In this document: piece by piece, positions 11,048 through 56,271 of the stretch
Numbering within the stretch: position 1 is the stretch's first letter
How the letters are laid out: every line of letters begins with the position of its first letter
NCBI GenBank assembly: GCA_022432975.1
Contig: CM039512.1
Span: 42,755,124-42,819,123 of the forward strand
DNA length: 64,000 bases
Reading direction: 5' to 3'
DNA from: Begonia masoniana
Lineage: Eukaryota > Streptophyta > Magnoliopsida > Cucurbitales > Begoniaceae
Translations under genes and position numbers: made by a program
Notes under the pieces: generated by a model
What the model was told of the DNA's origin: nothing
What the model saw: only the letters and a program-made list of their open reading frames with translations
Databases searched by the model: none

Positions 11048-13660
11048 TGTAATATCCGGCTTAATCGGATTTTGGATTTAATATATTATATTAATATATT
11101 ATATTATATGTGGCATTTTTGGTAAATATGTCAAATTAAGTCAGTTTCGCAAACGGAAAGCGTTAATACGATCCTAACGATTAATTGGAATTTTAAGGAA
11201 TTTTGGAGAAATTTTCGGAATAATAACGCTATATTCCGAGTAATTACGTTTCTCGTAAAACGAATGACGTTTTAGTAAAAATAGTAAACGGGGTCCGATT
11301 TGCGAACGAACAGTTTTAATAGAACCCAGATAATAAGTTGGAATTATTGGCGAAATAAGAAAATTCGAATGGTCGAAAACACGAGAGGGCAAAATTAATG
11401 TTTTGTTAAGAAATAGTTTTAATTATAATAATAATAATAATAATTATTATTATTATTATTATTAATAATAATAATCAAAACAAAAACAACGAAAAACGTT
11501 GTTTTTCGTTGTTGATTCGAGCCCGAGCACCCGCGACGAACGACGAACGACGAACGCGAACGGCGAGCGGCATCCCTCCAACGACGACGCGGCTCCGACG
11601 ACGAGCAGACTCCGGCGAGCTGAAGCCAGAGTGCGGTTCGGCCTTTCCGCACAAAAACCCGATCGAAAACGGTGAGTTCTTCCCTGTTCTTGCTCGATTT
11701 CTGGCCGCGAACGTCGAGCTCTGTTGAGCTCCGATCGCCGGCCCTTCGTGGCCGTTCTTGGCGTCGAATGGTCGGCTTAACACCGGCGATGGTTGCCGAG
11801 CGTTGGTGTGCCCAATTTGGGTCGAAAACAGGGAATCCCGAATTGGGGATTTCGGGTTTTCGGTGAATAACATCTAAATTTTGGTTAGTTTATGTTAATT
11901 AGGTATAAGAGGGATTGATTGGTGAGAAAATGAGCGTGAATTGATGAAAAATCGAAAAGGGGGAAAATTCCGGGAAAGGGCAGTTCGGGTTTTTGATAAA
12001 TTGACCTAGCTCCGGTCGTTTGTTTTTAAATTCCTTTTGGCATATTAAAATAGGTTATTAGAGGAGTACGTGGCCGCTGGAATCGTTCGATTCCGATAAC
12101 CGACGCGAAAGTTACGCGCGTTCGAAGTTTTAGGTCGGTTTTTACCCAACCCGAATTAGTGGCCCGTTAAGTTAGGTTTTAATTGGATTAGACTAGAAAT
12201 AGTAATTTGAGAGTAATTGGAGAATGTAGGCTTGATTTTAATGAAGTCTGAATGTTTGACATAGGTCGAGCCATATGTGACCGGATGTGCCAAAACCAGC
12301 AAGCTACGGACGACAGGTAAGTTTTCGTGACTTACTTTGACCAATCGGTCTACACCATACTTCGATGTCGTATCGAGGATTCCTGAGGACTTGTTTGCTT
12401 TAAATCGCTTTCGGTTGGGTAGTTAGGTTTAAATGGTTTATAGGTTATTCTATTTCGGTCTTGATGGTATATATGTTGATTGTTTACTTTCTGTTCATTA
12501 TCTGTTCATGCATCACGTATTTCAAATGACATGAAAACGAATTCTACACGATGTTTTCAAAGAAAAATCTATGTGGCCCGTACGGGGGGACTTTGATCTA
12601 TTGGTGGACTATTTCCGGGTCTGACCAATACCACATCATCTGGTTACGCGAGATGGGGCTCAGGCATGGCTGTAGGGTTTATGAGCATGTACCCCCCTCC
12701 TCTAGGTCGAAAGTGGTAGTCCGACCGCGGGATGTATCCTTTCCATTTAGAGGGCTGATATCTCGGTGGCAATATGTATGAAATGATCTGATATGTCTGA
12801 TGAGCATGTTTTTCTGAACTTCATATGCACGACACGCATGCATCTGCATTTACGTAGCTTACTGAGATTTCCATATCTCATATGTGTCTGTATGGTGTAG
12901 GTGACGTTCTAGGTTACGTTGACCCAGGTGAGGATGATATTCCTTCTCCTGACGTAGGAGCAGCTGATGGATGATGGCCGTGGGAGTGCGCTGAGCAGTC
13001 GAGGCGCGTTTTGACCCGTGGGGAATGATGTAAAGGTATTTTGGGATGTATGTGAGTGTTTTGGAGGAGTTGGTATTTTGGGATGTATGTAAGTATTTTG
13101 GAGGAGTTAATGGTATTATAAAATGTATAGTTGATCATATTAGGATGCTTGGATCTGGTTAGGTGATAGATTTATGTTAATGGTATTATAAAATGTATAG
13201 TTGATCATATTAGGGTGTTTGGTTCTGTTTAGTTGATAGATTTGTTTTATAAAACGTTTGTTAAGGTTTTTATTTGGATTTTTATGAACTGCTTGGTATT
13301 TTGTAAACAGGAGGATATGTTAAACTTTTAAACGGAACCATGCAGTTTGTTTTCGTGAAAATGTGTTTTGTTTAATTATATCTCGAGTCGTTCTGAGTGA
13401 GATTTCGGAGATGTAGGAGTATCGGTGGTTTAAAGTTAAGTCGTATTGGGAAGTGTATGTTTGTGATGTAGTTATAATTCGTGGTATAGATAGAATTGCG
13501 TTAGTGAAATGGTGAGGTGTATTTTGTAGGTGTTTGTGCGCGTGTTAGTTTAAATAATAGTTTTGAAATTTTTTAAACGTTTTATTAAATCGTTTTCCAC
13601 TTAAACGCTAAGTATAAAAAGAAAAAGAAGAAAATAGGGTACAGTGTCTGGGTCGTTACA
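11048..13660 (+). repeat. Tekay-type gypsy solo LTR with GGTTC duplication
   Basis: A 2613-bp LTR from TGTAATATCCGGC to GGTCGTTACA, flanked by a perfect GGTTC duplication (11043-11047, 13661-13665) inside SIRE-A RT. Its first 300 bp closely match the LTRs of the palindromic element (shared ATATATTA runs, TGTGGCATTTTTGGTAAATA and CGAACG...ACAGTTTTAATA). It contains an AAT/ATT microsatellite (about 11424-11476) and CGACGAACG repeats near 11530. Compared with 33766-36170 it lacks the hairpin cassette before the U5 end. Confidence 0.92.
11424..11476. repeat. (AAT)n/(ATT)n microsatellite
   Basis: ATAATAATAATA runs followed by ATTATTATTATT and back to ATAATAATAAT. It is self-complementary and able to fold back. 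It sits in the LTR between the conserved U3 start and a GC-richer region. Confidence 0.85.
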
Positions 13661-23760: not shown

Positions 23761-24146
23761 TGTGATGGCCCGGATCTGCAAGTATGGTAGAGGGCTGCCA
23801 CGAACCGGAACCAGGATGGCGCTACGTCGCGGTTCTGGGGGGAACCGGAAGGGACGGGTCGTAAAAAGGGGGTTAGTCACATCCCCGAGCTGGGGGAAGT
23901 TATGGGAAATGGAACATATGTAAAGAGATCCTCCCAACATAGCAAGACGCGTTTTGGAGCTCAATGAGGGGGCGACGGATCCCATAAGAACTCCGAAGTT
24001 AAGAGGGCGTCGGCGAGATAATTCAGTTGGGGGGGCCCTTCAGGGAAGTGCTCTCGCCAAACAAAGCCGTTTTGAGGGGGGAGGCTATTGGGCTACGGCC
24101 CAATCCCCAGAGCGGACAATATCTTGCTGGGAACAGGGGTCTTACA
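23761..24146 (+). repeat. Cassandra LTR 1 of array
   Basis: 386 bp from TGTGATGGCCC to GGGGTCTTACA. The 5S-like segment is at 23977-24058, with a damaged C-box (GTTGGGGGGGCCC in place of GGTTGGGTGACC). It is the most diverged of the three. Confidence 0.88.
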
Positions 24147-24221
24147 AAATGGGAGTCAGAGCCTGTAACAACAGGAATTGTGGCCAACGAGGACGTTGGG
24201 CCCCTGGATGGGGGGGGTGAT

Positions 24222-24602
24222 TGGGATGGACCCGGATTGCAAGTATGGTCCGATGGCGCACGAACCGGAACCGGATGGCTGCGGTACGTCAGCGCCGGGC
24301 GAACCGGAAAGGGGACGGGTCGTAAAAAGGGGGTCGTCACAATCCCACAGCGCTTGGGGAAAGTATGGGGAAATGAAACATATGTAAAGAGATCCTCCCA
24401 ACATAGCAAGACGGTTTGGAGCTCAATTGACGAAAGGATCACATAAGAACTCCGAAGTTAAGAGGGCTTCGGCGAGAGTAATCCAGGTCTGGGTGACCTT
24501 CAGGGAAGTGCTCTCGCCAAACAAAGCCGTGAGGGGAGGATATTGGGCTACGGCACAATCCCCAGAGCGGACAATATCTTGCTGGGAACAGGGGTCGTTA
24601 CA
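24222..24602 (+). repeat. Cassandra LTR 2 of array
   Basis: 381 bp from TGGGATGGACCC (first bases mutated from TGTGATG) to GGTCGTTACA. The 5S-like segment at 24436-24518 retains GGTCTGGGTGACC. It is followed by an intact primer site. Confidence 0.88.
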
Positions 24603-24604
24603 AA

Positions 24605-24616
24605 TGGTATCAGAGC
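24605..24616 (+). other. Primer binding site, tRNA-Met (Cassandra)
   Basis: TGGTATCAGAGC, complementary to the 3' end of initiator Met-tRNA, two bases after LTR 2. Confidence 0.88.
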
Positions 24617-24673
24617 CTGTACCCAACCGGAATTGTGGCCAACGAGGACGTTGGGCCCCCGAGGGGGGGTGAT

Positions 24674-25051
24674 TGTGATGACCCGGATCTGCAAGTATGG
24701 TACGATGGCTGCACGAACCGGAACCCGGATGGCGGTACGTCCGCGCGGGCGAACCGGAAGGTGACGGGTCGTAAAAAGGGGGTCGTCACAATCCCACAGC
24801 GCTTGGGGAAGTATGTGGAAATGAAACATATGTAAAGAGATCCTCCCAACATAGCAAGACGCGTTTTGGAGCTCAATTGACGACGGATCCCATAAGAACT
24901 CCGAAGTTAAGAGGGCTTCGGCGAGAGTAATTCCAGGTTGGGTGACCTTCCGGGAAGTGCTCTCGCCAAACAAAGCCGTGAGGGGAGGATATTGGGCTAC
25001 GGCCCAATCCCCAGAGCGGACAATATCTTGCTGGGAACAGGGGTCGTTACA
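24674..25051 (+). repeat. Cassandra LTR 3 of array
   Basis: 378 bp from TGTGATGACCC to GGTCGTTACA. It is the best preserved copy; its terminal A at 25051 is followed by the GAATT duplication. Confidence 0.9.
24885..24966 (+). promoter_or_regulatory. 5S rRNA-derived Pol III promoter segment (LTR 3)
   Basis: GGATCCCATAAGAACTCCGA, AAGTTAAGAGGGCTTCGG, then GGTTGGGTGACC and GGGAAGTG, parallel to nucleotides of plant 5S rRNA that contain the A-box, intermediate element and C-box. The boxes here are the best preserved in the window. Transcription would run toward the MULE leader about 35 bp past the LTR. Confidence 0.85.
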
Positions 25052-25084
25052 GAATTGAATCTATGTAACCTTGCAGGGAAGAAA

Positions 25085-25967
25085 ATGGACACATTTTCAA
25101 TTGACTTTCACTATGGAGGGAAGTTCATCAAGAAAAAAAATTTACAGTACGTGGGTGGAGATGATGCACTAGTGACAAATATTAATGTGGATAAGATGTC
25201 TTTTTTTGTGATTGTAGACATGGTTGTAAATGTCAGAGCTGGAGTATGGAAGACTCTGTATTACGTGGAGCCTCCATTAAGAATGGAAAATGGATTGTGA
25301 AAAGTGAAGTCTGATAATGACGTACTTCAAATTGTTGGGGCGTTGAATGACAAACGTCACATTCATATGTACGTAGACCATGAATGCATTGACGTATTTG
25401 ACCAGGAAGAGGCTAGAAATGTTTAGTCATCTGATTCATCAAAGTTTGAGGGTGGTCCTCAAGTTGGTGAAGCGGAGGATCCAACTCATGCAGATGAGGC
25501 AGCTGTTGGTGAAGCAGGGTATCCAATTCATATTCTGATTCCATCAGTTTCAGCCTCCTTATCCAATGACAATCTTTCAACCGCTAAATCCGATGATACG
25601 ATGCATGAAGCGAATACCGCAGAATCAGTCAACAACTCTTTAGAAATATATTTGGAAGACAGTTTCAGCTCATTGGTTGAAATTTAGAAAAAAATCGTCG
25701 ATTATGCTTTGGTTAACGGATTTGACATCAGATTTGCCAAACATGAGAAAACAAGAATAGAACCTAGATGTCAGAAAGGTTGTGTTTGGAGACTCTACAC
25801 ATCAAAAGTGACAAATGAAGAGTCTTTCCAAGTGAAGAGGTTGAATGATGTTCTGACTATGCTCGCACAATGGAGAGTCGCCATGCAACAGCTAAGTGGG
25901 TGGCAGAACGTTATTTGCATCGATTTAGAAGTCAACCTCAGTGGGAAATATCATCTATCATTGACAC
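25085..25967 (+). pseudogene. MULE transposase N-terminal half
   Basis: Starts MDTFSIDFHYGGKF with the PB1-like N-terminal domain common to plant MuDR transposases (YVGGDDALVTNINVDKMSFF ... YYVEPPLRMENGL). A TGA at 25298 replaces a codon expected to be Arg before KVKSDNDVLQ. More stops lie near 25424 and 25685. The MuDR DNA-binding region follows (FDIRFAKHEKTRIEPRCQKG, then after a frameshift WVAERYLHRFRSQ) and is cut at 25967 by the palindromic gypsy element. CCTTGCAG at 25068-25075, just before the ATG, may be a leader splice acceptor. Multiple lesions: not functional. Confidence 0.88.
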
Positions 25968-28348
25968 TGTCACGACCCTAAACACTGTACCCAATTCCCG
26001 TACTATTTTTTTTTTTTTTTACTTTAAACGGAAACTAAACCGAAATCGAAACCAGAATCGAAATCGGAATTGAATTCTAACTTTTAAAACAAATTAAATA
26101 AAACCTAAATTAATTAATTAAAACTTAAATTAATTAAAATAAAACCAATTTTAAAAATAAATACAATAGGGAGGCGATTGCTCGCCACAGTTTGTGGCGA
26201 GCAATCGCCACTCCCTCTGGATTTCTCCAGAGGGAGGCGATTCAATCGCCAGGCTTGGCGACCATTCGCCAAGCCCTCTGCCCTGTTTCCATTTCTACAT
26301 TCATTCTTTCGATTTCTCCTACGCCAACTACACAATATAACTTATTCTTACACCCTAAACCATACAATACATCACGACGCAAAACTAAGAACATTTTAAA
26401 ACTAAGAACATTTTCATGAAAACGAACTGCATGGATACGTTTAAAACCTAAACAAATCCTCCTGTTTTCAATCACCACGCAGTTCCAAAATACATTCAAT
26501 GAAAGACTTTTCAAACCATTATAAAACAGTTTCCAAAACATCAACATATACATATATATCTATCAACTATCCAGAATCAAACAACTTAAAATATTTCTAT
26601 ACAAACATCATTCCAAAATATCCCAAACTCTCAAAATCTATACATACTGTCCCCACGGGTCAGGTAACCCTCGACTGCGCCATCACACCACCGCAGCCAT
26701 CCCTCGTCAACTGGACTCATGTCTCAGGAGGAGGGACATCGTCCTCACCTGCCTCGATGTCTAAGTCACCTACACCATACAATACACTATGAGATGAAAT
26801 CCCAGTAAGCTCTACGTAAATGCAATGCATGCTGTGCATATGAGTTTATTAATCATGTATGTTTTCTTTACTATGCAATGCTCAATAGGTGTCACCGAGA
26901 TCCTATCCCTCTAACCAAAGAGAGCTCATCCAGCGGGCGGACTACTCTTTCCAGCTAGAAGCAGGGGGTGCACGCTTACAACACGTACAGCCGTGCCTGA
27001 GCCCCACCTCGCGTGACCGATAACAATACGCCTTTCGGCCAATACGCCTTTCGGCCAGTAAGCCTTTCGGCCGATGCTATGCTTTACATTATCTTTAAAA
27101 CTCTGTGAGGAAGTTCATTTTCATGTTTTTCTTTAAAACAAGTGATGCGTGAACAGTTCAATATCTTAAAGTAAACAAGCAATAATGTATACCATCAAAG
27201 ACTGTAAAACATAATCTATAAAACAAATAAACCTAGCTACCCAACCAAAGCAATATAAAACAAGTGCGTCTCCAAAATTCCTCGACACGACAGTCGACGT
27301 ACGGTGTAGGCCAATCGGCCAGAGAAGAATCACGAGAACTTACCTCGTGTCCAAAGCAACTCAAGCTCCGTCCACGAGCGTTGTTTGTCTGAAGCAAAAC
27401 ACAATATCGACGTTAAAACCAATTTAAGCTATCGATCGTCCAAATTTACAAAACCTTAACTAAGGAATTTCCTAACGTTCCAACTTAACTTATCGAGGCA
27501 TTAAATCCATTAATCTACGCTCGATACCCCGAAATCCAATTTACGAGTTTTCCGAAAAGCCGAAATTTACAAATTTAACATTTCTCCTAAATCGTCCTAA
27601 CTTCTTTCAATAACGCTTAATACGTGAAATACGTTCGTAAACTATAACAATCTATCAACTTCGAGCCCTAAATCTCGACTTTTAAACGAAACCTAACGAA
27701 ACCCTAATTGTTCAAACTCCGTAAACATTGAAATAAAAGCTCTAAGATTGTAGGTTCATACCTAGAACGTCGATTGTAGGAGAAAGCACGAAGAAAACGG
27801 AACGAACGGAGGTCGAATCGGAGGTAAAATGTCAACGGCTCGCGTGAGGGAGAAAGGGAGAAGCTCTCTGTTATCGTGAGCTCCAGGGAAGAAGAAGAAA
27901 GAAATGAGGACGAAAAGGATTTTGTGATATTTTATAAAATTGATTTGGTAAATCACTAAAATGTCATTCCATAGTTTTTATATATGTTTCGTCATTCGTA
28001 TCATTAATCGGCCAAAGATTCGGATTCGCCAAATTTCCTTATTTCGCCAATAACTCCAACTTATTATTTGGGAATTATTAAAACTGTCCGTTCGTAAATC
28101 GGACCCCGTTTACTGTTTTTACTGAAACGTCCTTTACATTACGATAAAGGTAATTACTCGGAATATAGTGTTATTATTCCGAAAATTCCCTAAATTTTCC
28201 TAAAATTCCAATTAATCGTTAGGATCGTAATGACGCTTTCTTTTCGTGAAACGGACCTGATTTGACATATTTACCAAAAATGCCACATATATAATAAAAT
28301 ATTAATATAATATATTAAATCCAAAATCCGTACAAGCCGGGTATTACA
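25968..28348 (-). repeat. Left-arm LTR of palindromic element
   Basis: 2381 bp. On the minus strand it starts TGTAATACCCGGC at 28348 and ends GGGTCGTGACA at 25968. It matches the right-arm LTR along its length except in the hairpin cassette (about 26165-26280), which differs. It contains three CCTTTCGGCC-type repeats near 27030-27075. Confidence 0.9.
26165..26280. repeat. Hairpin cassette, left-arm LTR
   Basis: A perfect inverted repeat GGCGATTGCTCGCCACA / TGTGGCGAGCAATCGCC with a 3-bp loop (26172-26208), then CCTCTGGA/TCCAGAGG, and GGCTTGGCGA / TCGCCAAGCC (26252-26275). It lies about 200-310 bp from the U5 end. Confidence 0.88.
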
Positions 28349-28388
28349 TTCCACCCACCTTATTTAGAATTTTGTCCACAAAATTTAA

Positions 28389-30147
28389 CTATACAAACAA
28401 CTCAGGATATCTAGTCATCATATCATGCTGTCGCTCCCACGTAGCCTCTTCCACCTCGTGGTTCCGCCACAAAACTTTGATCAGTGGAATCTCTTTGTTG
28501 CGCAATACCTTGATGGAAGTCTCCAAAATACGCACCGGCCTCTCCTCATAAGTCAAGGTAGGCTGTACCTCGATCTCTGTCGCTTCCACGGCATGTGATG
28601 GGTCACGTATACATCTCCGAAGCATAGATACGTGGAATACATCGTGGATACACTCCATAGAAGTCGGAAGCTGCAATCTATACGCCAACTTCCCGATCCT
28701 CTTCAGAATAGGAAAGGGCCCCACAAAACGAGGGTTTAGCTTACCCCTCCTTCCAAATCTCGCAACACCTTTGAAAGGAGAAACCTTAAGATAAACTTTG
28801 TCACCTTCCTCGAACTCTAGCTCTCTCCGTCTCGTGTCAGCATAGCTCTTCTGTCTGCTCTGAGCTACCTCTATACACTGTCGGATAATGGTAATCTTCT
28901 CTGCCGTTTGCTGTAGAATCTCCGGACCAACGATGCTGGCCTCGCCAACCTCGTCCCAATATAACAGAGACCTACACTTCCAAACATACAACGCCTCATA
29001 CGGAGCCATGCCAATAGTAGCCTGAAAACTGTTGTTGTACGAGAACTCAATTAGAGGCAAATATCGGCTCCATGAGCCCTGGAACTCCAGCACGCAAGCT
29101 CTGAACATATCCTCAAGTATCTGATTCGTCCTCTCTGTCTGACCATCAGTCTGAGGATGGAATGCCGTGCTGAAATTAAGCTGAGTCCCCATAGCTCTGT
29201 GTAAACTCTTCCAGAACTTCGATGTGAATCTCGGATCTCTGTCTGAGACAATAGAAACTGGCACTCTGTGCAATCTCACAATCTCCTGTACATAGAGCTC
29301 TGCGAGCTGATCCATAGAAGACGCCATCTTCACAGACAAGAAGTGGGCCGACTTTGTCAATCGGTCCACAATAACCCATATGCCGTCATGGCCCTTCGTC
29401 GTCCTCGGGAGCCCCACAATGAAATCCATGGAGATCTGCTCCCACTTCTACTCCGGAATCGGCAGTGGCAATAACGTTCCGGCTGGTCTCTGGTGCTTTG
29501 CCTTCACCTGTTGACATACTAAACAGGCCTCAACGTACTTAGCAACCTCCCTCTTCATGTTCGGCCACCAGAAATGTTGCTTTAGGTCCCGGTACATCTT
29601 AGTACTTCCCGGGTGCACAGAATACGCCGAAAGAATATGCCTCGGCCAATATCTCCTCTTTCAGATCCTCGTCGCTAGGCACGTACCACCTATGCCTGAA
29701 CTTTAGAATACCATCCTCCGATAAATGGAAATCCGACGAGTCTCCCAATGTCATGCTGGATCGAAGCTCCTCACACTCCGTATCATTCTGTTGAGCCTCA
29801 CGTATCCGATCCAGAATAGTCGGCCCGAGAGAAATGTTGGTGAGCATACTGGACAACTCTGCCACTATCTCCACGTCGAACCTCTCAATCTCAGACCGCA
29901 GCGTAACTGACATCGCTGCTAATGAAGGCTGACTCGCAGAAGGCACTCTACTCAAGGCATCAACAACCTTGTTCGCCTTTCCTGGATGGTACTTGATATC
30001 AAAATCATAATCTTTGACGAACTCAAGCCATCGTCTCTGTCGCATGTTCAGCTCCTTCTGCGTAAATAAATACTTCAGGCCACTGATCCCAGGATCTTCT
30101 CCACACCAATAACATACACCAATAACATACATTAGCGGACAGTCCAC
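28389..30147 (-). pseudogene. Left-arm pol fragment (RNase H tail and integrase, with lesions)
   Basis: Nearly the same protein as residues 630-1191 of the right arm, on the opposite strand. It starts with a scrap of zinc knuckle (VCYWCGE) joined directly to RNase H wording ([15 protein letters not shown]). An extra T near 29626 shifts the frame at the integrase finger ([13 protein letters not shown] instead of [12 protein letters not shown]), and TGG to TAG near 29451 stops it before the core ([15 protein letters not shown]). The core and C-terminal chromodomain-like tail are open (29429-28389). Degenerate compared with the right arm. Confidence 0.9.
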
Positions 30148-30200
30148 TGATGGTGGCGAAGATCCTGGGATCAGTGGGCACGAATGTATGTTATTGGTGT
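30085..30200. other. Palindrome centre / arm junction
   Basis: GAAGATCCTGGGATCAGTGG occurs on both strands (minus near 30094-30075, plus near 30159-30178). TATGTTATTGGTG also occurs on both, and twice in tandem on the minus strand (about 30106-30132). On the minus strand GATCAGTGG is fused directly to RNase H (CCTGAAGTATTT). This patchwork with microhomology fits repeated template jumps by reverse transcriptase. Confidence 0.75.
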
Positions 30201-33200
30201 GGAGAGCCAGGCCATTTTGCTAAAGACTGCCCGAAGCGGGGTCGAGATCAGTCGGGCAGTGATCAGAGGAGAGTTATGCCCAGGATCTTCGCTTTTATCG
30301 AGCCTGGTGATGTTGATAACGAGGATCAGCCTGCCGTGATAGCAGGTACTATATTGTTTACTGGCGTTCCTGTATTTTCTTTATTAGACACGGGAGCTAC
30401 GCATTCTTTTGTTTCCACCGCTTGTGTGTCGAGATTGAGGCTTGCGCCTGAGTTAGCAGAATGCGAGTATAGTGTGATGCTACCTTCAGGAGAGCGTATG
30501 CAGTCAGGTCGTGTAGTCCAAGATAATATTATCTCGATTGGGGATCGTACCCTCTATGCTCGCCTTATTATTATGGGCATCGAGCACTATGATCTTATCT
30601 TAGGGATGGATTGGCTATCGCAGCATTTCGCCACCATCGATTGTCGATCCGGGATTGTGACCTTCCGACCCCCGGATAGAGCCGAGTTTTCTTATCAGGC
30701 GATGAGCAGAATGAGTAGCGCCCCTATTTCTTATTCTATGAAGGTCAACGAGCAGTTTAAAGGTGCGTGCTCTATTTATTTGGCCTCTGTATTTGATTGT
30801 CAGTTGCTCAGTAGAGAAAAGCCGAGCGACATTCCTATTGTCAGAGAGTTCTTTGGGATCTTTCTTGATGATCTTCCCGGGTTACCACCAGACCGGGAGA
30901 TCGAGTTCACTATTGATGTCTACCCAAACTCCGCGCCGAGGTTTAAAAACCCGTATCGATTGGCACCAGCTGAGTTGAGAGAGCTGAGAACTCAGCTTGA
31001 TGAGTTGTTAGAGAAGGGATTTATTCGACCCAGTGTATCGCCTTGGGGTGCGCCCGTTCTGTTTGTCAAGAAGAAAGACGGGACCCTCAAGATGTGCATT
31101 GATTACAGGGAGTTGAACAAATTGACGGTGAAGAATAAGTATCCACTGCCTCGGATTGATGATTTATTTGATCAGCTGCAGGGTGCCCGAGTATTTTCGA
31201 GGATTGATCTACGCTCGGGTTACAATCAGCTGAAGGTCCGGAAGGATGATATACCGAAGACGGCATTCCGAACGAGGTATGGGCATTATGAGTTCCTTGT
31301 TATGTCTTTCGGACTTATTATTGCCCCTGCAGCGTTTATGGACTTGATGAACCGTGTCTTCAAGGAGTATCTGGACAAGTTCGTGGTGGTTTTCATTGAC
31401 GATATCCTGATTTACTCTAAGACGAAGGAAGAGCACGAGGAGCATCTGAGGATCGTTTTACAGATTCTGAGTCAACGCCAGCTATATCCCAAGTTTTCGA
31501 AGTGCGAGTTCTGGCTTGACAGAATGAGCTTCCTTGGCCATATCATATCACAGGACGGAGTTTCTGTGGATCCGAGCAAGATTCAGGTGGTCAGAGATTG
31601 GCCACAGCCAAAGAACGTACGTGAGGTGCGTGGATTTCTCGGATTGGCCGGTTATTATCGGAAATTTATAGAGGGATTCTCGAAGATCGCACTTCCCCTC
31701 TCACGATTGACTCGGAAGAACGAGAGGTTTATATGGTCGTCTGCTTGTGATGACAGTTTTATGGAGTTAAAGCAGAGATTGACCACCGCTTCAGTACTGG
31801 CGCTACCTGTTGAAGGTGTCAGATTCAGTATTTACTGCGATGCGTCAGGAGTTGGACTAGGTTGTGTGTTGATGCAGGAGGGGAGAGTTATTGCCTATGC
31901 TTCTCGGCAGTTGAAGCCGTACGAGCAGAACTACCCTACGCACGACCTTGAGCTAGCAGCTGTGGTCTTCGCACTGAAGATATGGAGGCATTATCTGTAT
32001 GGGCAGCAGTGCGAGATATTTTCTGACCACAATAGCCTGAAGTATTTATTTACGCAGAAGGAGCTGAACATGCGACAGAGACGATGGCTTGAGTTCGTCA
32101 AAGATTATGATTTTGATATCAAGTACCATCCAGGAAAGGCGAACAAGGTTGTTGATGCCTTGAGTAGAGTGCCTTCTGCGAGTCAGCCTTCATTAGCAGC
32201 GATGTCAGTTACGCTGCGGTCTGAGATTGAGAGGTTCGACGTGGAGATAGTGGCAGAGTTGTCCAGTATGCTCACCAACATTTCTCTCGGGCCGACTATT
32301 CTGGATCGGATACGTGAGGCTCAACAGAATGATACGGAGTGTGAGGAGCTTCGATCCAGCATGACATTGGGAGACTCGTCGGATTTCCATTTATCAGAGG
32401 ATGGTATTCTGAAGTTCAGGCATAGGTGGTACGTGCCTAGCGACGCGGATCTGAAGGAGGAGATATTGGCCGAGGCACATTCTTCGGCGTATTCTGTGCA
32501 CCCGGGAAGTACTAAGATGTACCGGGACCTAAAGCAACATTTCTGGTGGCCGAACATGAAGAAGGAGGTTGCTAAGTACGTTGAGGCCTGTTTAGTATGT
32601 CAACAGGTGAAGGCAGAGCACCAGAGACCAGCCGGAACGTTATTGCCACTGCCGATTCCAGAGTGGAAGTGGGAGCAGATCTCCATGGATTTCATTGTGG
32701 GGCTCCCGAGGACGACGAAGGGCCATGACGGCATATGGGTTATTGTGGACCGATTGACAAAGTCGGCCCACTTCTTGTCTGTGAAGATGGCGTCTTCTAT
32801 GGATCAGCTCGCAGAGCTCTATGTACAGGAGATTGTGAGATTGCACGGAGTGCCAGTTTCTATTGTCTCAGACAGAGATCCGAGATTCACATCGAAGTTC
32901 TGGAAGAGTTTACACAGAGCTATGGGGACTCAGCTTAATTTCAGCACAGCATTCCATCCTCAGACTGATGGTCAGACAGAGAGGACGAATCAGATACTTG
33001 AGGATATGCTCAGAGCTTGCGTGCTGGAGTTTCAGGGCTCGTGGAGCCGATATTTGCCTCTGATTGAGTTCTCGTACAACAACAGCTTTCAGGCTACTAT
33101 TGGCATGGCTCCGTATGAGGCGTTGTATGGTCGGAAGTGTAGGTCTCTGTTATATTGGGACGAGGTTGGCGAGGCCAGCATCGTTGGTCCGGAGATTCTA

Positions 33201-33725
33201 CAGCAAACGGCAGAGAAGATTGCCATTATCCGACAGCGTATAGAGGTAGCTCAGAGCAGACAGAAGAGCTATGCTGACACGAGACGGAAAGAGCTAGAGT
33301 TCGAGGAAGGTGACGAAGTTTATCTTAAGGTTTCTCCGTTCAAAGGTGTTGCGAGATTTGGAAGGAGGGGTAAGCAAAACCCTCGTTTTGTGGGGCCTTT
33401 TCCTATTCTGAAGAGGATCGGGAAGTTGGCGTATAGACTGCAGCTTCCGGCTTCTATGGAGGGTATCCACGATGTATTCCACGTATCTATGCTTCGGAGA
33501 TGTCTACGTGACCCATCACATGCCGTGGAAGCGACAGAGATCGAGGTACAGCCTACCTTGACTTATGAGGAGAGGCCGGTGCGTATTTTGGAGACTTCCA
33601 TCAAGGTATTGCGCAACAAAGAGATTCCGCTGATCAAAGTTTTGTGGCGGAACCACGAGGTGGAAGAGGCTACGTGGGAGCGACAGCAGGATATGATGAC
33701 TAGATATCCTGAGTTGTTTGTATAG
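30150..33725 (+). CDS. pol: Tekay-type pol without gag (protease, RT, RNase H, integrase, chromodomain-like tail)
   Basis: An uninterrupted 1191-codon frame. It begins just before a zinc knuckle ([14 protein letters not shown], residues 14-27). Protease [10 protein letters not shown] (Asp about 80); RT with [13 protein letters not shown] and FIDDILIYS (Asp pair about 417); RNase [12 protein letters not shown] (about 564); integrase finger ([11 protein letters not shown] ... CLVCQQVK), core Asp in MDFIVG (about 846), SDRDPRFTS (about 908) and QTERTNQ (about 942); tail [16 protein letters not shown] (about 1165) as in chromovirus tails. Oddities: [10 protein letters not shown] where TN is normal, and no capsid domain, so the start codon is incidental. 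A source of enzyme at most; it cannot form particles alone. Confidence 0.9.
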
Positions 33726-33765
33726 TTAAATTTTGTGAACAAAATTCTAAATAAGGTGGGTGGAA

Positions 33766-36170
33766 TGTAATACCCGGCTTGTACGGATTTTGGATTTAAT
33801 ATATTATATTAATATTTTATTATATATGTGGCATTTTTGGTAAATATGTCAAATCAGGTCCGTTTCACGAAAAGAAAGCGTCATTACGATCCTAACGATT
33901 AATTGGAATTTTAGGAAAATTTAGGGAATTTTCGGAATAATAACACTATATTCCGAGTAATTACCTTTATCGTAATGTAAAGGACGTTTCAGTAAAAACA
34001 GTAAACGGGGTCCGATTTGCGAACGGACAGTTTTAATAATTCCCAAATAATAAGTTGGAGTTATTGCGAAATAAGGAAATTTGGCGAATCCGAATCTTTG
34101 GTCGATTAATGATACGAATGACGAAACATATATAAAAACTATGGAAGGACATTTTAGTAATTTACCAAATCAATTTTATAAAATATCACAAAATCCTTTT
34201 CCTCCTCATTTCTTTCTTCTTCTTCCCTGGAGCTCACGATAACAGAGAGCTTCTCCCTTTCTCCCTCACGCGAGCCGTTGACATTTTACCTCCGATTCAA
34301 CCTCCGTTCGTTCCGTTTTCTTCGTGCTTTCTCCTACAATCGACGTTCTAGGTATGAACCTACAATCTTAGAGCTTTTATTTCAATGTTTACGGAGTTTG
34401 AACAATTAGGGTTTCGTTAGGTTTCGTTTAAAAGTCGAGATTTAGGGCTCGAAGTTGATAGATTGTTATAGTTTACGAACGTATTTCACGTATTAAGCGT
34501 TATTGGAAGAAGTTAGGACGATTTAGGAGAAATGTTAAATTTGTAAATTTCGGGTTTTCGGAAAACTCTTAAATTGGATTTCGGGGTATCGAGCGTAGAT
34601 TAATGGATTTAATGCCTCGATAAGTTAAGTTGGAACGTTAGGAAATTCCTTAGTTAAGGTTTTGTAAATTTGGACGATCGATAGCTTAAATTGGTTTTAA
34701 CGTCGATATTGTGTTTTGCTTCAGACAAACAACGCTCGTGGACGGAGCTTGAGTTGCTTTGGACACGAGGTAAGTTCTCGTGATTCTTCTCTGGCCGATT
34801 GGCCTACACCGTACGTCGACTGTCGTGTCAAGGAATTTTGGAGACGCACTTGTTTTATATTGCTTTGGTTGGGTAGCTAGGTTTATTTGTTTTATAGATT
34901 ATGTTTTACAGTCTTTGATGGTATACATTATTGCTTGTTTACTTTAAGATATTGAACTGTTCACGCATCACTTGTTTTAAAGAAAAACATGAAAATGAAC
35001 TTCCTCACAGAGTTTTAAAGATAATGTAAAGCATAGCATCGGCCGAAAGGCGTATTGGCCGAAAGGCGTATTGTTATCGGTCATGCGAGGTGGGGCTCAG
35101 GCACGGCTGTACGTGTTGTAAGCGTGCACCCCCTGCTTCTAGCTGGAAAGAGTAGTCCGCCCGCTGGATAAGCTCTCTCTGGTTAGAGGGATAGGATCTC
35201 GGTGACACCTATTGAGCATTGCATAGTAAAGAAAACATACATGATTAATGAACTCATATGCACAGCATGCATTGCATTTACGTAGAGCTTACTGGGATTT
35301 CATCTCATAGTGTATTGTATGGTGTAGGTGACTTAGACATCGAGGCAGGTGAGGACGATGTCCCTCTTCCTGAGGCATGAATCCAGTTGACGAGGGATGG
35401 CTGCGGTGGTGTGCTGGCGCAGTCGAGGCTTACCTGACCCGTGGGGACAGTATGTATAGATTTTGAGGGTTTGGGACATTTTGGGATGATGTTTGTATAG
35501 AAATATTTTAGGTTGTTTGATTCTGGATAGTTGATAGGTATATATGTATATGTTGATGTTTTGGAAACTGTTTTATAATGGTTTGAAAAGTCTTTCATTG
35601 AATGTATTTTGAAACTGCGTGGTGATTGAAAACAGGAGGATTTGTTTAGGTTTTAAACGTATCCATGCAGTTCGTTTTCATGAAAATGTTCTTAGTTTTA
35701 AAATGTTCTTAGTTTTGCGTCGTGATGTATTGTATGGTTTAGGGTGTAAGAATAAGTTGTATTGTGTAGTTGGCGTAAGAGAAATTGAAAGAATGAATGT
35801 AGAAATGGAAACAGGGCAGAGGGCTTGGCGAATGGTCGCCAAGCCTGGCGATTGAATCGCCTCCCTCTAAAGAAATCCAGAGGGAGTGGCGATTGCAACA
35901 GGCGATTATTCTCCTGTTGCAATCGCCTAGGGGCGATTATTCGCCCCAATTATGGGCGAATAATCGCCTCCCTATTGTATTTTTTTTTAAAATTGTTTTT
36001 AATTTAATTAATTTAAGTTTTAATTAATTAATTTAGGTTATATTTAATTTGTTTGAAAAGTTAGAATTCAATTCCGATTTCGATTCTGGTTTCAATTTCG
36101 GTTTAGTTTCCGCTTAAAGTAAAAAAAAAAAATAGTACGGGAATTGGGTACAGTGTTTAGGGTCGTGACA
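33766..36170 (+). repeat. Right-arm LTR of palindromic element
   Basis: 2405 bp, TGTAATACCCGGC ... GGGTCGTGACA, preceded by a weak purine tract (AAGGTGGGTGGAA). CCGAAAGGCGTATTGG is doubled near 35041-35070. It ends at the GAAAC duplication. Confidence 0.9.
35814..35972. repeat. Hairpin cassette, right-arm LTR
   Basis: Three perfect inverted repeats: GGCTTGGCGA/TCGCCAAGCC (35822-35845), GGCGATTGCAACAGG/CCTGTTGCAATCGCC (35888-35927) and GGCGATTATTCGCCC/GGGCGAATAATCGCC (35932-35968). The first is shared with the left LTR; the other two are not. Confidence 0.9.
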
Positions 36171-37673
36171 GAAACAGTTAGGCGAGACTTTAATGTCAAC
36201 ATCAGCCCTAGCCTAGCAATTAGGGTAAGGAGGAGGGCTATAAATGTGGATTCAACTATGCAATATAAATAGCTGGGGTCGTATGCGTAAGAAGTTCTGA
36301 GATCCAGTCCTAGTAGAACCTTCATTATCAATGTTGACAGTGTTGATGGTCAAACAGAGCCCATATTCAAGCGACTTTACATGTGTTTAAATGCCTGTAA
36401 GAAAGGCCTTTTAACCGGATGTCGACCATTAATAAGTTTGGACGGATGTCACTTGAAAGGGGCATGTCCTGGTTAACTTCTAACCACTATCAGTGTAGAT
36501 GCAAATGACGAAATATATTCTGTTGCAGTAGCTGTTGTCGATGTTGAGTCAAAGAAGTCTTGGAAATGGTTTGTCAGGTTGTTGTTGACGGATATTGGAC
36601 TGATCATGGTGAAGGCTGGACAATCATTTCCGATCAACAAAAAGTAAGTATATGTGATCATTATCAAAGTTTATTTGCTTTCACCTACTAACATATGACA
36701 TATCTTTTATGCAGGGTTTGGAAGTAGTACTTCGAAAACATGTACCAGATGCGGAGGTTCGATTTTGTGTACATTATATGTATGCAAATTTCAAGAAGAA
36801 GTTTCACGGAAAACTCTACAAAGACATTATGTGGAATGCTTCGACTGCGACAACACGTGAAATGTTTGTGAAAGAAATGAAGAGGCTATGGAACTTCGAT
36901 GAAGCAGCATATAGATATCTTGCGGAGTATGATGCGAAGCACTGGTGTAGACATACTTTCAATCATAGATCGAAGTGTGAGCTAACGTTGAACAATCTGA
37001 TCAAGTCATTCAACGCCTTCATCTTACCAGCACGTGATAAGCCAATTGTGACCATGATATAAATGATAAGAATGACAATAATGACAAGAATTTGTAAGAG
37101 GCATGAACAAATGGAGCAACAAAACGGACTACTATGCCCTCAGATACGAAAGAAATTAAACAAACTACGAGTTGAAGGTAGAAATTAGTGTGCAACTGGA
37201 GCTGGGGATGAAAGATTTCAAGTTAGTGATGTCAATCAACAATTCGTCGTTGACTTAGCCAACGCTATTTGCAGTTGTAACCGGTGGCATCTCGCAGGCA
37301 TACCATGTGTTCATGCTGTACCATGCATATCATTAATGAGAAGAGACATTGAATCATAAGTTGATCGTTGCTACCATCGGCAGACATGGTCAAAAAAAAA
37401 AAGAGAACGAGGGATGTTAATGAACCTCAAGGTCAGAGTAAATTGGGCAAGATGCGTAAAGTTATTAAGTGTAGTAAATGTCGGGATCTGAACCATAATG
37501 CTAGAACATGCAAAGGAGTAATCATTGATTCTAGCATGGAAGCCAGTGCCTCAACATCACGAGGAAGATCAACTTTGTTTGGTCTTTCTGCAGCTTGCAT
37601 TAGAATCCAAGTTAGTAATGTTTTTTCTCTTTCCCAATTTGTTATATCGTACTTAATTATTGTTAACAATTAA
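36171..37673 (+). pseudogene. MULE transposase C-terminal half
   Basis: Resumes with VRRDFNVNISPSLAIRVRRRA, then the catalytic region (RLYMCLNACKKGLLTGCRPL, SLDGCHLKG at about 36440). A 71-bp intron (36644-36714, GTAAGT...TTTTATGCAG) lies between the DQQK and GLEVVLRK codons. Then come VRFCVHYMYANFKKKFHG, a SWIM finger (CSCNRWHLAGIPCVHA, about 37270-37320) and a zinc knuckle (CSKCRDLNHNARTC, about 37468-37510). Stops occur (after DSTMQYK, CPG, RVEGRN and DIES), so it is dead. A further splice donor (CCAAGTTAGTAATG) follows near 37608. The order of domains is that of MuDR/MURA-type transposases. Confidence 0.88.
36644..36714 (+). other. Intron in MULE transposase
   Basis: GTAAGTATATG at the 5' side and CTTTTATGCAG at the 3' side. 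Removing it joins QQK to GLEVV in frame, as expected for the family. Confidence 0.8.
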
Positions 37674-53773: not shown

Positions 53774-56271
53774 TGTAACACCCCAGACACTATACCCAAT
53801 TTCCCCGTATAAATTTTTCATTTTATACTTATTACTTTTCTTTACTTTAAATAAAACTTTGTGCGGAATAAAAACTGAGGTTGAAGTCAGAACTGAAATC
53901 GGAAATCAATTCGAACCTTAAAATCATTTAGAACAAGACATTTAATAATTAATTGAAAACTTAAAACATTAATTTAAAAACATTTACAATAACACACAAA
54001 AGGGGAGGGCAGAATCGGGATTCTGCCCCCCAAGAGTATCAGTGATCGGGCGCTGCAATTTGCAGCGCCCGGGCGCCACATTCGCTGCATGTTGCAGCGC
54101 CCAGTCGCTGCAACCATGCAGCGCCCGGTCGCTGCAACCTTGCAGCGACCCACACCTCTTTCTCGCTTCATTCTTTTCCTTACACTTGCTCTCTGGAATC
54201 ACAATTTCCAGAGAGCAACACAATTTCCTCAAGCTCTCTGGAGTCCGATTCCAGAGAGCAGAATTTCACACTCTTCTTTACCCATTCTCTCAATTTACCT
54301 CATAACACTTATAACTTAAATCCAACCGACTCGCAGCGGACTTTGCGAAATCCAACTGCGTGGATGTATCTAAACATCGAGCATAACCGTATCAACCTAA
54401 AACCAATCAAAACATTTCCATAACATTCATTAAACAGTTTAAACCAAAACGTTTTACATACAATTATCAAAACGTTATCTAATCCCTATCCAGATCCAAA
54501 CAACCTAAATATTCTATACAATAATCAATTCAAAACATCCCAAAATAACCCCAGAGTCCAGACATACATCCCCACGGGTCAGAAAGTGCCTCGACTACAT
54601 AGCGCACTCCCACGGCCGTCATCCATCAACTGCATCAGACGGAGGAACGCCGTCCTCACCTGGTTCGATATCACCTAAGAGGTTACCTACACCATACAGA
54701 CACATATGAGATATTGAAATCTCAGTAAGCTACGTAAATGCAGATGCATGCGTGCGTATGTCATTCAGAAATCATGCTCAGATTCAGATTACAGATACAG
54801 AATTACAGATTACAGATTCATTACGTCACAGACAGACAGAATTGTCACCGAGACCTCGACCCACTAACCCAAGGGGGCCCGTCCGGCGGTTGGACTACCC
54901 CGTGGGGTTAGAGAGGGGGGTACACGCTTGCAACACGCACAGCCGTGCCTGAGCCCCATCTCGCGTGACCAGAAACAGACAGATTACGTTTATTCATTCA
55001 GATTCCGTTACAGATTTCATTTCAGATATACGTTCCTTTTCTTAAAAACACGTGCAGAAATTCCTTTTCATGACTTTCGAAAACCGTGATGCATGAACAG
55101 TTCATATCAGCGGAAAGTAAACAAACAACGTGCATACATTCATGGCAGTAAAGCAGAACCTATAAACAACTAACCTAACTACCCAACCAGAGTAACATAA
55201 AACAAACAGTTCCTCGAGTATTCCCGAGACGACGACGGAGTATGGTGCAGACCTTTGGGTCAAAGTAAGTCACGAAAACTTACCTCGAGTGCGCAGAACC
55301 ACGAGCTATGTCCACGAGAGTCGTGTGTCTGAGAAAAATACGACATTCACAGTTAAAACCAATTTAAACCATAAATGTCCAAATTTCAAAACTTAGCTAA
55401 AGAATTCTCCTAAATTCTTCACTTAGCTAATTAAAGCTTTTCTAACATTAATTATAGCTCGATTATCCAAATTAACGAGTTTTCCCCTAAAACCCGAAAT
55501 TTTACCAATTTATAACTTTTTCGCAATTCGACTTTTCTTCGTCCAATAACGTTCAATACGTTCAATATATACGTAATTATAGCTAACCTATTAATTACGA
55601 AGCCTAAATCGCGTTTTTAACGGAAAACCTAATTTAAACCCTAACCCTAAATCGAACTAAAACTCGAAACAAACGCTCAGAGATTGAAGCTACATACCGA
55701 GAGTAGCGAGAGGAGGAGAAACTGTGAAGAAATCAGAACGAACGGAGGTCGGACGGAGGTCGGATCGTTGGAAGTCGTCGGCTGAGGGGTGAAGAAATCG
55801 CCTCTGGCGATTGTGATTTCCAGAGAGAAGAAGAGAAGTGAGGGAATAGGGAGGTGATTGTTATTTTTATAAAATTTAGTTTGCAAATTACTATTTTGCC
55901 CTTAGTACTTAATTCTATTAGTTTCGTCCTTCGTTTCGTTAATCGTCCAACTATTCGGATTCTCGAAAGTTTCATATTTTGCCAATAACTTCTATTCATT
56001 GCCAGGGATTTATTAAAACTGTCCGTTCGCAATTTGGACCTTGTTTGCTATTTTTACGAGAACGTCTTTTACATTACGAAAAGCGTATTTACTCGGAATA
56101 TAGTGTTTGATCTCCGAAAATTTCCGTAAATTCCTTAAAATTCTAATTAATCGCTAGGATCGTAATGACGTTTTCTTTTCGTAAATCGGACCTGATTTGA
56201 CATAATTACAAAAATGCCAATAACAATATAATCATAATATAATAAAAGGTCCGTACAAACCGGATATTACA
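53774..56271 (-). repeat. Tekay-type solo LTR in gypsy-B integrase
   Basis: 2498 bp. On the minus strand it runs TGTAATATCCGGTTTGTACGG ... GGGGTGTTACA, flanked by a perfect AGAAC duplication (53769-53773, 56272-56276). Same LTR family as the palindromic element and the solo LTR at 11048. No polypurine tract, primer site or coding sequence adheres to it. It carries a hairpin cassette at about 54007-54260. Confidence 0.93.
54007..54262. repeat. Hairpin cassette, solo LTR
   Basis: GGGCAGAAT/ATTCTGCCC (54007-54028), GGGCGCTGCAA/TTTGCAGCGCCC (54048-54070), then further GCTGCA...TGCAGC pairs to about 54150, and two GCTCTCTGGA/TCCAGAGAGC hairpins (about 54188-54260). Distance from the U5 end is about 235-490 bp. 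Confidence 0.88.

Follow-up and report, generated by a model that had tools for sequence, protein, structure and literature searches.

The nearest natural insertions that we found described are the template-switch complexes of Poaceae, in which a single integration with a 5-bp target duplication followed wrong template use in a particle that carries two RNAs (Sabot and Schulman 2007, PMC1950507). Here, we compare these and other systems with an unusual long terminal repeat (LTR) retrotransposon of Begonia masoniana, located in a 64,000-nucleotide stretch of contig CM039512.1 that we refer to as the window (C11:42755124-42819123 in a 795-Mb, 308-contig assembly). Positions 25968-36170 of the window are a single 10.2-kb Ty3/gypsy-type insertion in the form of an imperfect palindrome, which lies within the gene of a Mutator-like element (MULE). 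A canonical LTR-retrotransposon insertion has a U3 end on one side and a U5 end on the other, whereas this one has U5 twice. Like the Poaceae complexes, it has a target duplication and outer LTRs that resemble each other, but the Poaceae complexes are arranged head to tail and have three LTRs with ordinary outer ends, whereas the window insertion has two inverted LTRs and U5 at both ends (PMC1950507).

Three further systems share single features with the Begonia locus. The minus-strand strong-stop DNA of human immunodeficiency virus 1 (HIV-1) self-primes at a hairpin (PMC4668388), and a similar hairpin fold-back with self-copying is suggested by a palindrome that we found on C5 of the same assembly; the HIV-1 product is an unintegrated by-product, whereas the Begonia molecules appear integrated with target duplications. 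Repair of double-strand breaks in yeast can generate fold-back templated insertions with short inverted pieces and 0-5 bp of microhomology (PMC11724301), and the 94-bp joint at the centre of the window insertion likewise has short inverted templated pieces with small overlaps; the yeast insertions described there arise at chromosome breaks, whereas the joint could have originated in a particle or at a break. The plant LTR element ONSEN of Arabidopsis undergoes pairwise recombination by template switching between co-packaged RNAs (PMC5668417), as is also proposed for the window, but the ONSEN switches described follow homology and keep their orientation, whereas orientation is reversed in the window. 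The window insertion thus points to ordinary enzymes and known aberrant chemistry, but we found no earlier description, by title or abstract, of the integrated product, that is, a U5-U5 or palindromic LTR insertion, with older work on palindromic unintegrated retrovirus DNA lying outside this search. DIRS elements have inverted LTRs too, but they use a tyrosine recombinase and are not known to make a target duplication, whereas integrase domains and a target duplication are both present in the window insertion.

An inverted-repeat scan of the window detected five blocks that are 90-99% complementary. The left arm of the palindrome (25968-30080) is in antisense and comprises an LTR with its U5 end outward (25968-28348, minus strand, delimited by sequence comparison) and an inner part encoding integrase and the end of RNase H (28349-30080, minus strand, recognized by the inverted repeat, open reading frames, and Pfam). 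The right arm (30175-36170) is in sense and runs from zinc knuckle through protease, reverse transcriptase, RNase H, and integrase to the LTR. Its first 1.86 kb are an unpaired core with the zinc knuckle, protease, reverse transcriptase, and part of RNase H (30175-32034, plus strand, recognized by open reading frame, Pfam, and comparison with other copies). The paired portion (32035-36170) comprises the end of RNase H and integrase (32035-33765, plus strand, recognized by the inverted repeat, alignment, and Pfam) and a second LTR with its U5 end outward (33766-36170, plus strand, sequence comparison). The paired parts of the two arms, about 4.1 kb long, have 72 mismatches in 4090 aligned columns, gaps apart, and are 98.2% alike. 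Both outer termini are the LTR 3' (U5) end, which reads TGTCACGACC... on the left and ...GGTCGTGACA on the right, and U5 tags point outward on both sides. The architecture given in a preliminary description of this DNA, namely inverted arms of about 4.1 kb, an unpaired core of about 1.9 kb, and LTR 3' ends at both outer ends, was thus accurate.

The assignment to Ty3/gypsy follows the order of protease, reverse transcriptase, RNase H, and integrase within one open frame, together with LTRs of the form TG...CA, a purine tract ahead of the 3' LTR, and a 5-bp target duplication. The zinc knuckle, aspartic protease, reverse transcriptase, RNase H, and integrase zinc-binding domain passed the Pfam cut-offs; the integrase core (rve) stayed below threshold (24.2 and 22.7 versus a cut-off of 32.6 bits). 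A C-terminal motif looks like a chromodomain, and the element may belong to a Tekay-type clade. Two solo-like LTRs of the broader family also lie in the window, one at 11048-13660 and one at 53774-56271. They have the ordinary arrangement of U3 and U5 ends and are flanked by perfect 5-bp target duplications, GGTTC for the first and AGAAC for the second.

The palindrome is flanked by GACAC on the left (25963-25967) and GAAAC on the right (36171-36175), which are identical at four of five bases. Agreement at four or more of five bases has a chance of 1.6%, before the exact fit of the reading frame is counted, and siblings of the MULE settle the matter. Thirty-nine further MULE matches were listed, and the first 20 were fetched and compared over 221 bp. 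All 20 are uninterrupted at the site (in one of them, L100, another part of this segment has a large gap), and GACAC occurs once in 19 of them and GACAT in the other. Because the siblings read GACAC, the left copy is in the original state and GAAAC is a target copy with one base changed. Removal of the insert together with one flank copy leaves the MULE frame open across the site, which agrees with the continuous frame and the one-base flank difference reported in the preliminary description; empty sites other than a single GAAAC or GACAC, named there as evidence that would contradict it, were limited to the one GACAT. Neither separate target duplications nor missing host bases, which would indicate nested or repeated insertion, were found at the window insertion, and such a site is not the expected outcome of two independent insertions or of recombination among nested copies. 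The 5-bp target duplication and the 20 of 20 empty sites therefore strongly support a single integration of a DNA with two U5 ends at 25968-36170, as had been suggested.

The two arms meet in a 94-bp joint (30081-30174) that is copied throughout. Native sequence upstream of the zinc knuckle was available in 29 loci (L010-L038), and two of these, L011 and L012, suffice to tile the joint without gaps by eight snippets of 11-21 nt in both orientations, with zero untemplated bases. The sources are the element's own gag, zinc-knuckle, and protease regions: tiles 1-4 correspond to gag (sense, -707 relative to the zinc knuckle), the protease region (sense, +90), and twice the zinc knuckle (antisense), and tiles 5-8 to gag (sense, -719), the protease region (antisense, first at +438 and then at +90), and gag (antisense, -707), after which the right arm begins. 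This amounts to nine switch points, and adjacent pieces overlap by 1-5 nt. For an 82-bp test piece, 9-mers of L011 or L012 cover 78 bp, the last 4 bp belonging to a snippet cut by the edge of the test piece, and those of L028 cover 66 bp; among 1000 random pieces per copy, 0, 0, and 1 reached the observed coverage (means 15-17). Part of the joint is itself a copy of the joint. A chimeric stretch of gag and protease region, CCACTGATCCCAGGATCTTC, is present at 30080-30099 (plus strand) and, as its reverse complement, at 30158-30177 (minus strand), and the 11-mers across the chimera junction have no occurrence elsewhere among the loci compared. One copy was therefore made from the other, which means that freshly synthesized DNA was itself copied. 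Although neither arm contains gag from upstream of the zinc knuckle, gag snippets are in the joint, and the templates therefore included something longer than the final palindrome, e.g., genomic RNA or another complementary DNA (cDNA).

Other copies of the family with U5-U5 ends and target duplications, for which the preliminary description had recommended a search, do exist, and there are at least three U5-U5 loci including the window. Genome-wide, an exact U5 tag matches 1098 times; the first 100 listed are all on C1, and among these, there is one outward U5-U5 pair less than 20 kb apart (L104, C1:8015659-8016225). It is a 567-bp U5 palindrome with 93% self-complementarity and the flanks GCGCT and GTGCT. 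Searching with this palindrome led to C5:23511575-23512147, where a U5 palindrome occupies the place expected for the 5' LTR and is followed by a sequence resembling a primer-binding site and, 7.2 kb further, by an ordinary U5 end. The whole C5 insertion (L105/L106, C5:23511575-23519357), whose sequence was read at its two ends, has GAAGT on both sides. Its palindrome forms a mismatch-free 178-bp stem that is contiguous around a 57-bp loop, and the region folds strongly as single-stranded DNA (z score -4.0; none of 200 shuffled sequences folded as well). On the minus strand, ...GCAGGCAGCGATCG continues as GGCGCCGCGCACAC, and, read by eye, the 3' end matched its own upstream 7-nt GCGATCG. The centre of the C1 palindrome is nearly identical to that of C5, so C1 may either derive, in solo form, from a C5-like element or reflect a renewed event at that hairpin. 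For a tag specific to the window subfamily, there are 14 matches, and the sole outward pair within 20 kb is the window's own. These additional insertions, the templated patchwork of the joint, and a difference between the LTRs described below go beyond the preliminary description.

We favour, with moderate confidence, the explanation that a minus-strand cDNA folded back or switched template and that integrase then used two U5 ends. A minus-strand cDNA of the long arm, comprising U5-R-U3, integrase, RNase H, reverse transcriptase, and protease and ending just upstream of the zinc knuckle, would have lost its template. In a few jumps by microhomology, its 3' end would have copied parts of gag, the protease region, the zinc knuckle, and its own new end before it landed 1.86 kb back in the RNase H region of a minus strand, which could be its own or that of a second packaged genome. 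This minus strand would have been copied in the sense direction from RNase H to its U5 end, and completion of the second strand would have produced a linear duplex terminating in U5 at either end. The complementary strand could have been started, e.g., by transfer RNA (tRNA) priming on a primer-binding site created by copying past U5. Integrase would then have accepted this pair of similar ends, and a single insertion of the molecule would have duplicated 5 bp of the target. For the window, we infer that reverse transcriptase was the polymerase, that the events came in this order, and that the complementary strand was made in such a way.

Several points weigh against this explanation. A hairpin has one duplex end only, and an extra step is thus needed; the conversion of a hairpin into a two-ended duplex is absent from the preliminary description and is something that we only infer. 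The window joint, with nine switch points and gag from about 700 bp upstream of the zinc knuckle, does not show a simple snap-back. The snap-back or template switch originally put forward is supported in kind, given the copied joint, the self-templated inverted 20-nt piece, and the C5 fold-back, but the asymmetry of long and short arms, once seen as a prediction of snap-back, is also expected from the joining of two unequal cDNAs. Patchwork filler with 1-5 nt overlaps is equally typical of end-joining repair (PMC11724301).

The remaining points against it concern differences between the arms. A U5-side block of the LTR consists of hairpin cassettes (a, c, and b), which vary among copies and can differ between the two LTRs of a single element, a pattern that would result if units were skipped during copying. 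By LTR comparison, the block differs between the window arms, with unit a in the left LTR (26173-26209, minus strand) and units c + b in the right LTR (35888-35968, plus strand). The c + b block is common to the right arm and L062, a solo LTR (C1:44972983-44975616, GATTG on both sides), and unit a is common to the left arm and several other copies. Over the mid-LTR, the right arm matches L062 (97.7%) as closely as it matches the left arm (97.5%). The arms may also have been non-identical at birth, since changes fall on them unequally. When the direction of change is taken from the simple majority of compared copies, 49 of the 74 differences (window 26201-35896) are assigned to the left arm and 24 to the right, with 1 unscored; a strict rule assigns 29 to the left and 13 to the right and leaves 30 of 72 ambiguous (p = 0.02). 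At the strict sites, there are 23 G>A versus 7 C>T changes on the sense strand, on which the arms are G-rich. In favour of the explanation, the arms are 99.1% alike in U3, compared with 88.6% for the next copy, and are each other's closest relatives there, and most of the differences are changes that few or no other copies have. With respect to allele sharing, 43 of the 44 loci listed, several of which are overlapping pieces of one copy, have more alleles in common with the right arm than with the left (the exception is L027, 7 versus 6), and no left-arm lineage was found among them. It is possible that the arms started out identical, and also that they go back to two sister RNAs of a single particle.

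A simple snap-back fits the C5 insertion well. There, minus strong-stop DNA, starting exactly at the border of U5 and the tRNA, would fold in the U5 hairpin and copy itself, and the copied product would end with U5 plus, by reading into the tRNA, a primer-binding site. Such a product would resemble plus-strand strong-stop DNA and, if used in the second transfer, would place an inverted and a direct U5 at the 5' end of the element; the border between the two in C5 is at exactly the position that this proposal requires. Taking the loci together, we tentatively suggest, as a possibility somewhat short of even, that reverse transcription in this family regularly includes fold-back as a side path, aided by the U5 hairpin cassettes, and that integrase accepts two U5 ends in vivo. 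U5-U5 elements that are complete in other respects, such as C5, would arise when a folded strong-stop DNA with a copied primer-binding site replaces plus-strand strong-stop DNA, C1 would represent solo-type derivatives, and late fold-back would give large palindromes such as the window insertion.

The main rival to fold-back at the window, and a serious one that we consider unlikely on balance, is host end-joining of two cDNAs. One integrase complex would have bridged two cDNAs by their U5 ends and co-inserted them at one target. The inner end of one cDNA would have been trimmed as far as RNase H and that of the other as far as the zinc knuckle, and host repair of the polymerase-theta type would have joined the two, with the patchwork as filler. 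Short templated and inverted filler with small overlaps fits break repair (PMC11724301), and the unequal private changes and the differing cassette block fit two sister molecules. The C5 insertion, however, requires no joining of two molecules, as its fold is contiguous around the 57-bp loop. The cassette block, which we first thought strong evidence for two different parents, is weak evidence because two of the three ordinary elements with a confirmed target duplication have 5' and 3' LTRs that differ in the same way (L068/L079, TTTAT; L072/L081, GCTTG), while those of the third are alike (L070/L077, CTAAT). The LTRs of L074/L080, a pair whose duplication is not confirmed, also differ in this block, and L082/L083, with like blocks and the same flank, look like a segmental duplicate.

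Distinctly less probable is that two full-length cDNAs were joined U3 to U3, that the dimer was integrated via its outer U5 ends, and that its centre was later deleted asymmetrically with templated filler. Such a dimer would have provided gag in cis as the template for the gag snippets of the joint, and the centres of long palindromes are well known to be prone to loss. This scenario requires one more molecule, one more joining, and a subsequent deletion, though, and the longer form was not seen, other accessions not having been searched for one. An assembly artefact, either a fold-back read or a misjoin of two loci, is very improbable. Fold-back reads and repeat collapse do occur in general, but the arms differ in 72 of 4090 columns, and most of these changes are present in few or no other copies. 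Such differences are not expected from a fold-back read, which the 1.8% divergence therefore disfavours; a misjoin would not yield flanks that match one site in all 20 fetched siblings. With substitution rates per site per year of 1.3e-8 and 7e-9, the arm divergence amounts to about 0.7-1.3 million years. Neighbouring elements in inverted orientation are frequent in repeat-rich genomes, but a fusion of two independent insertions of opposite orientation, through loss of the DNA between them, is extremely improbable here and was rejected, as the siblings have empty sites, the host sequence is complete, and both flanks represent a single 5-bp target, a match improbable by chance.

Directly to the left of the MULE, at 24078-25056 of the window, there is a tandem-like repeat whose units are 88-95% alike and recur about every 450 bp.

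Self-primed cDNA is generally regarded as abortive. The Begonia loci indicate that self-primed molecules can be completed and then integrated through two U5 ends, and if this is true, a U3 end would not be needed in vivo for integration in this Ty3/gypsy family. U5-U5 insertions may escape annotation tools that seek direct LTRs, and genome-wide counts of them would directly measure fold-back during reverse transcription. The U5-U5 loci are also ready-made inverted repeats, which could yield hairpin RNA that silences the family.

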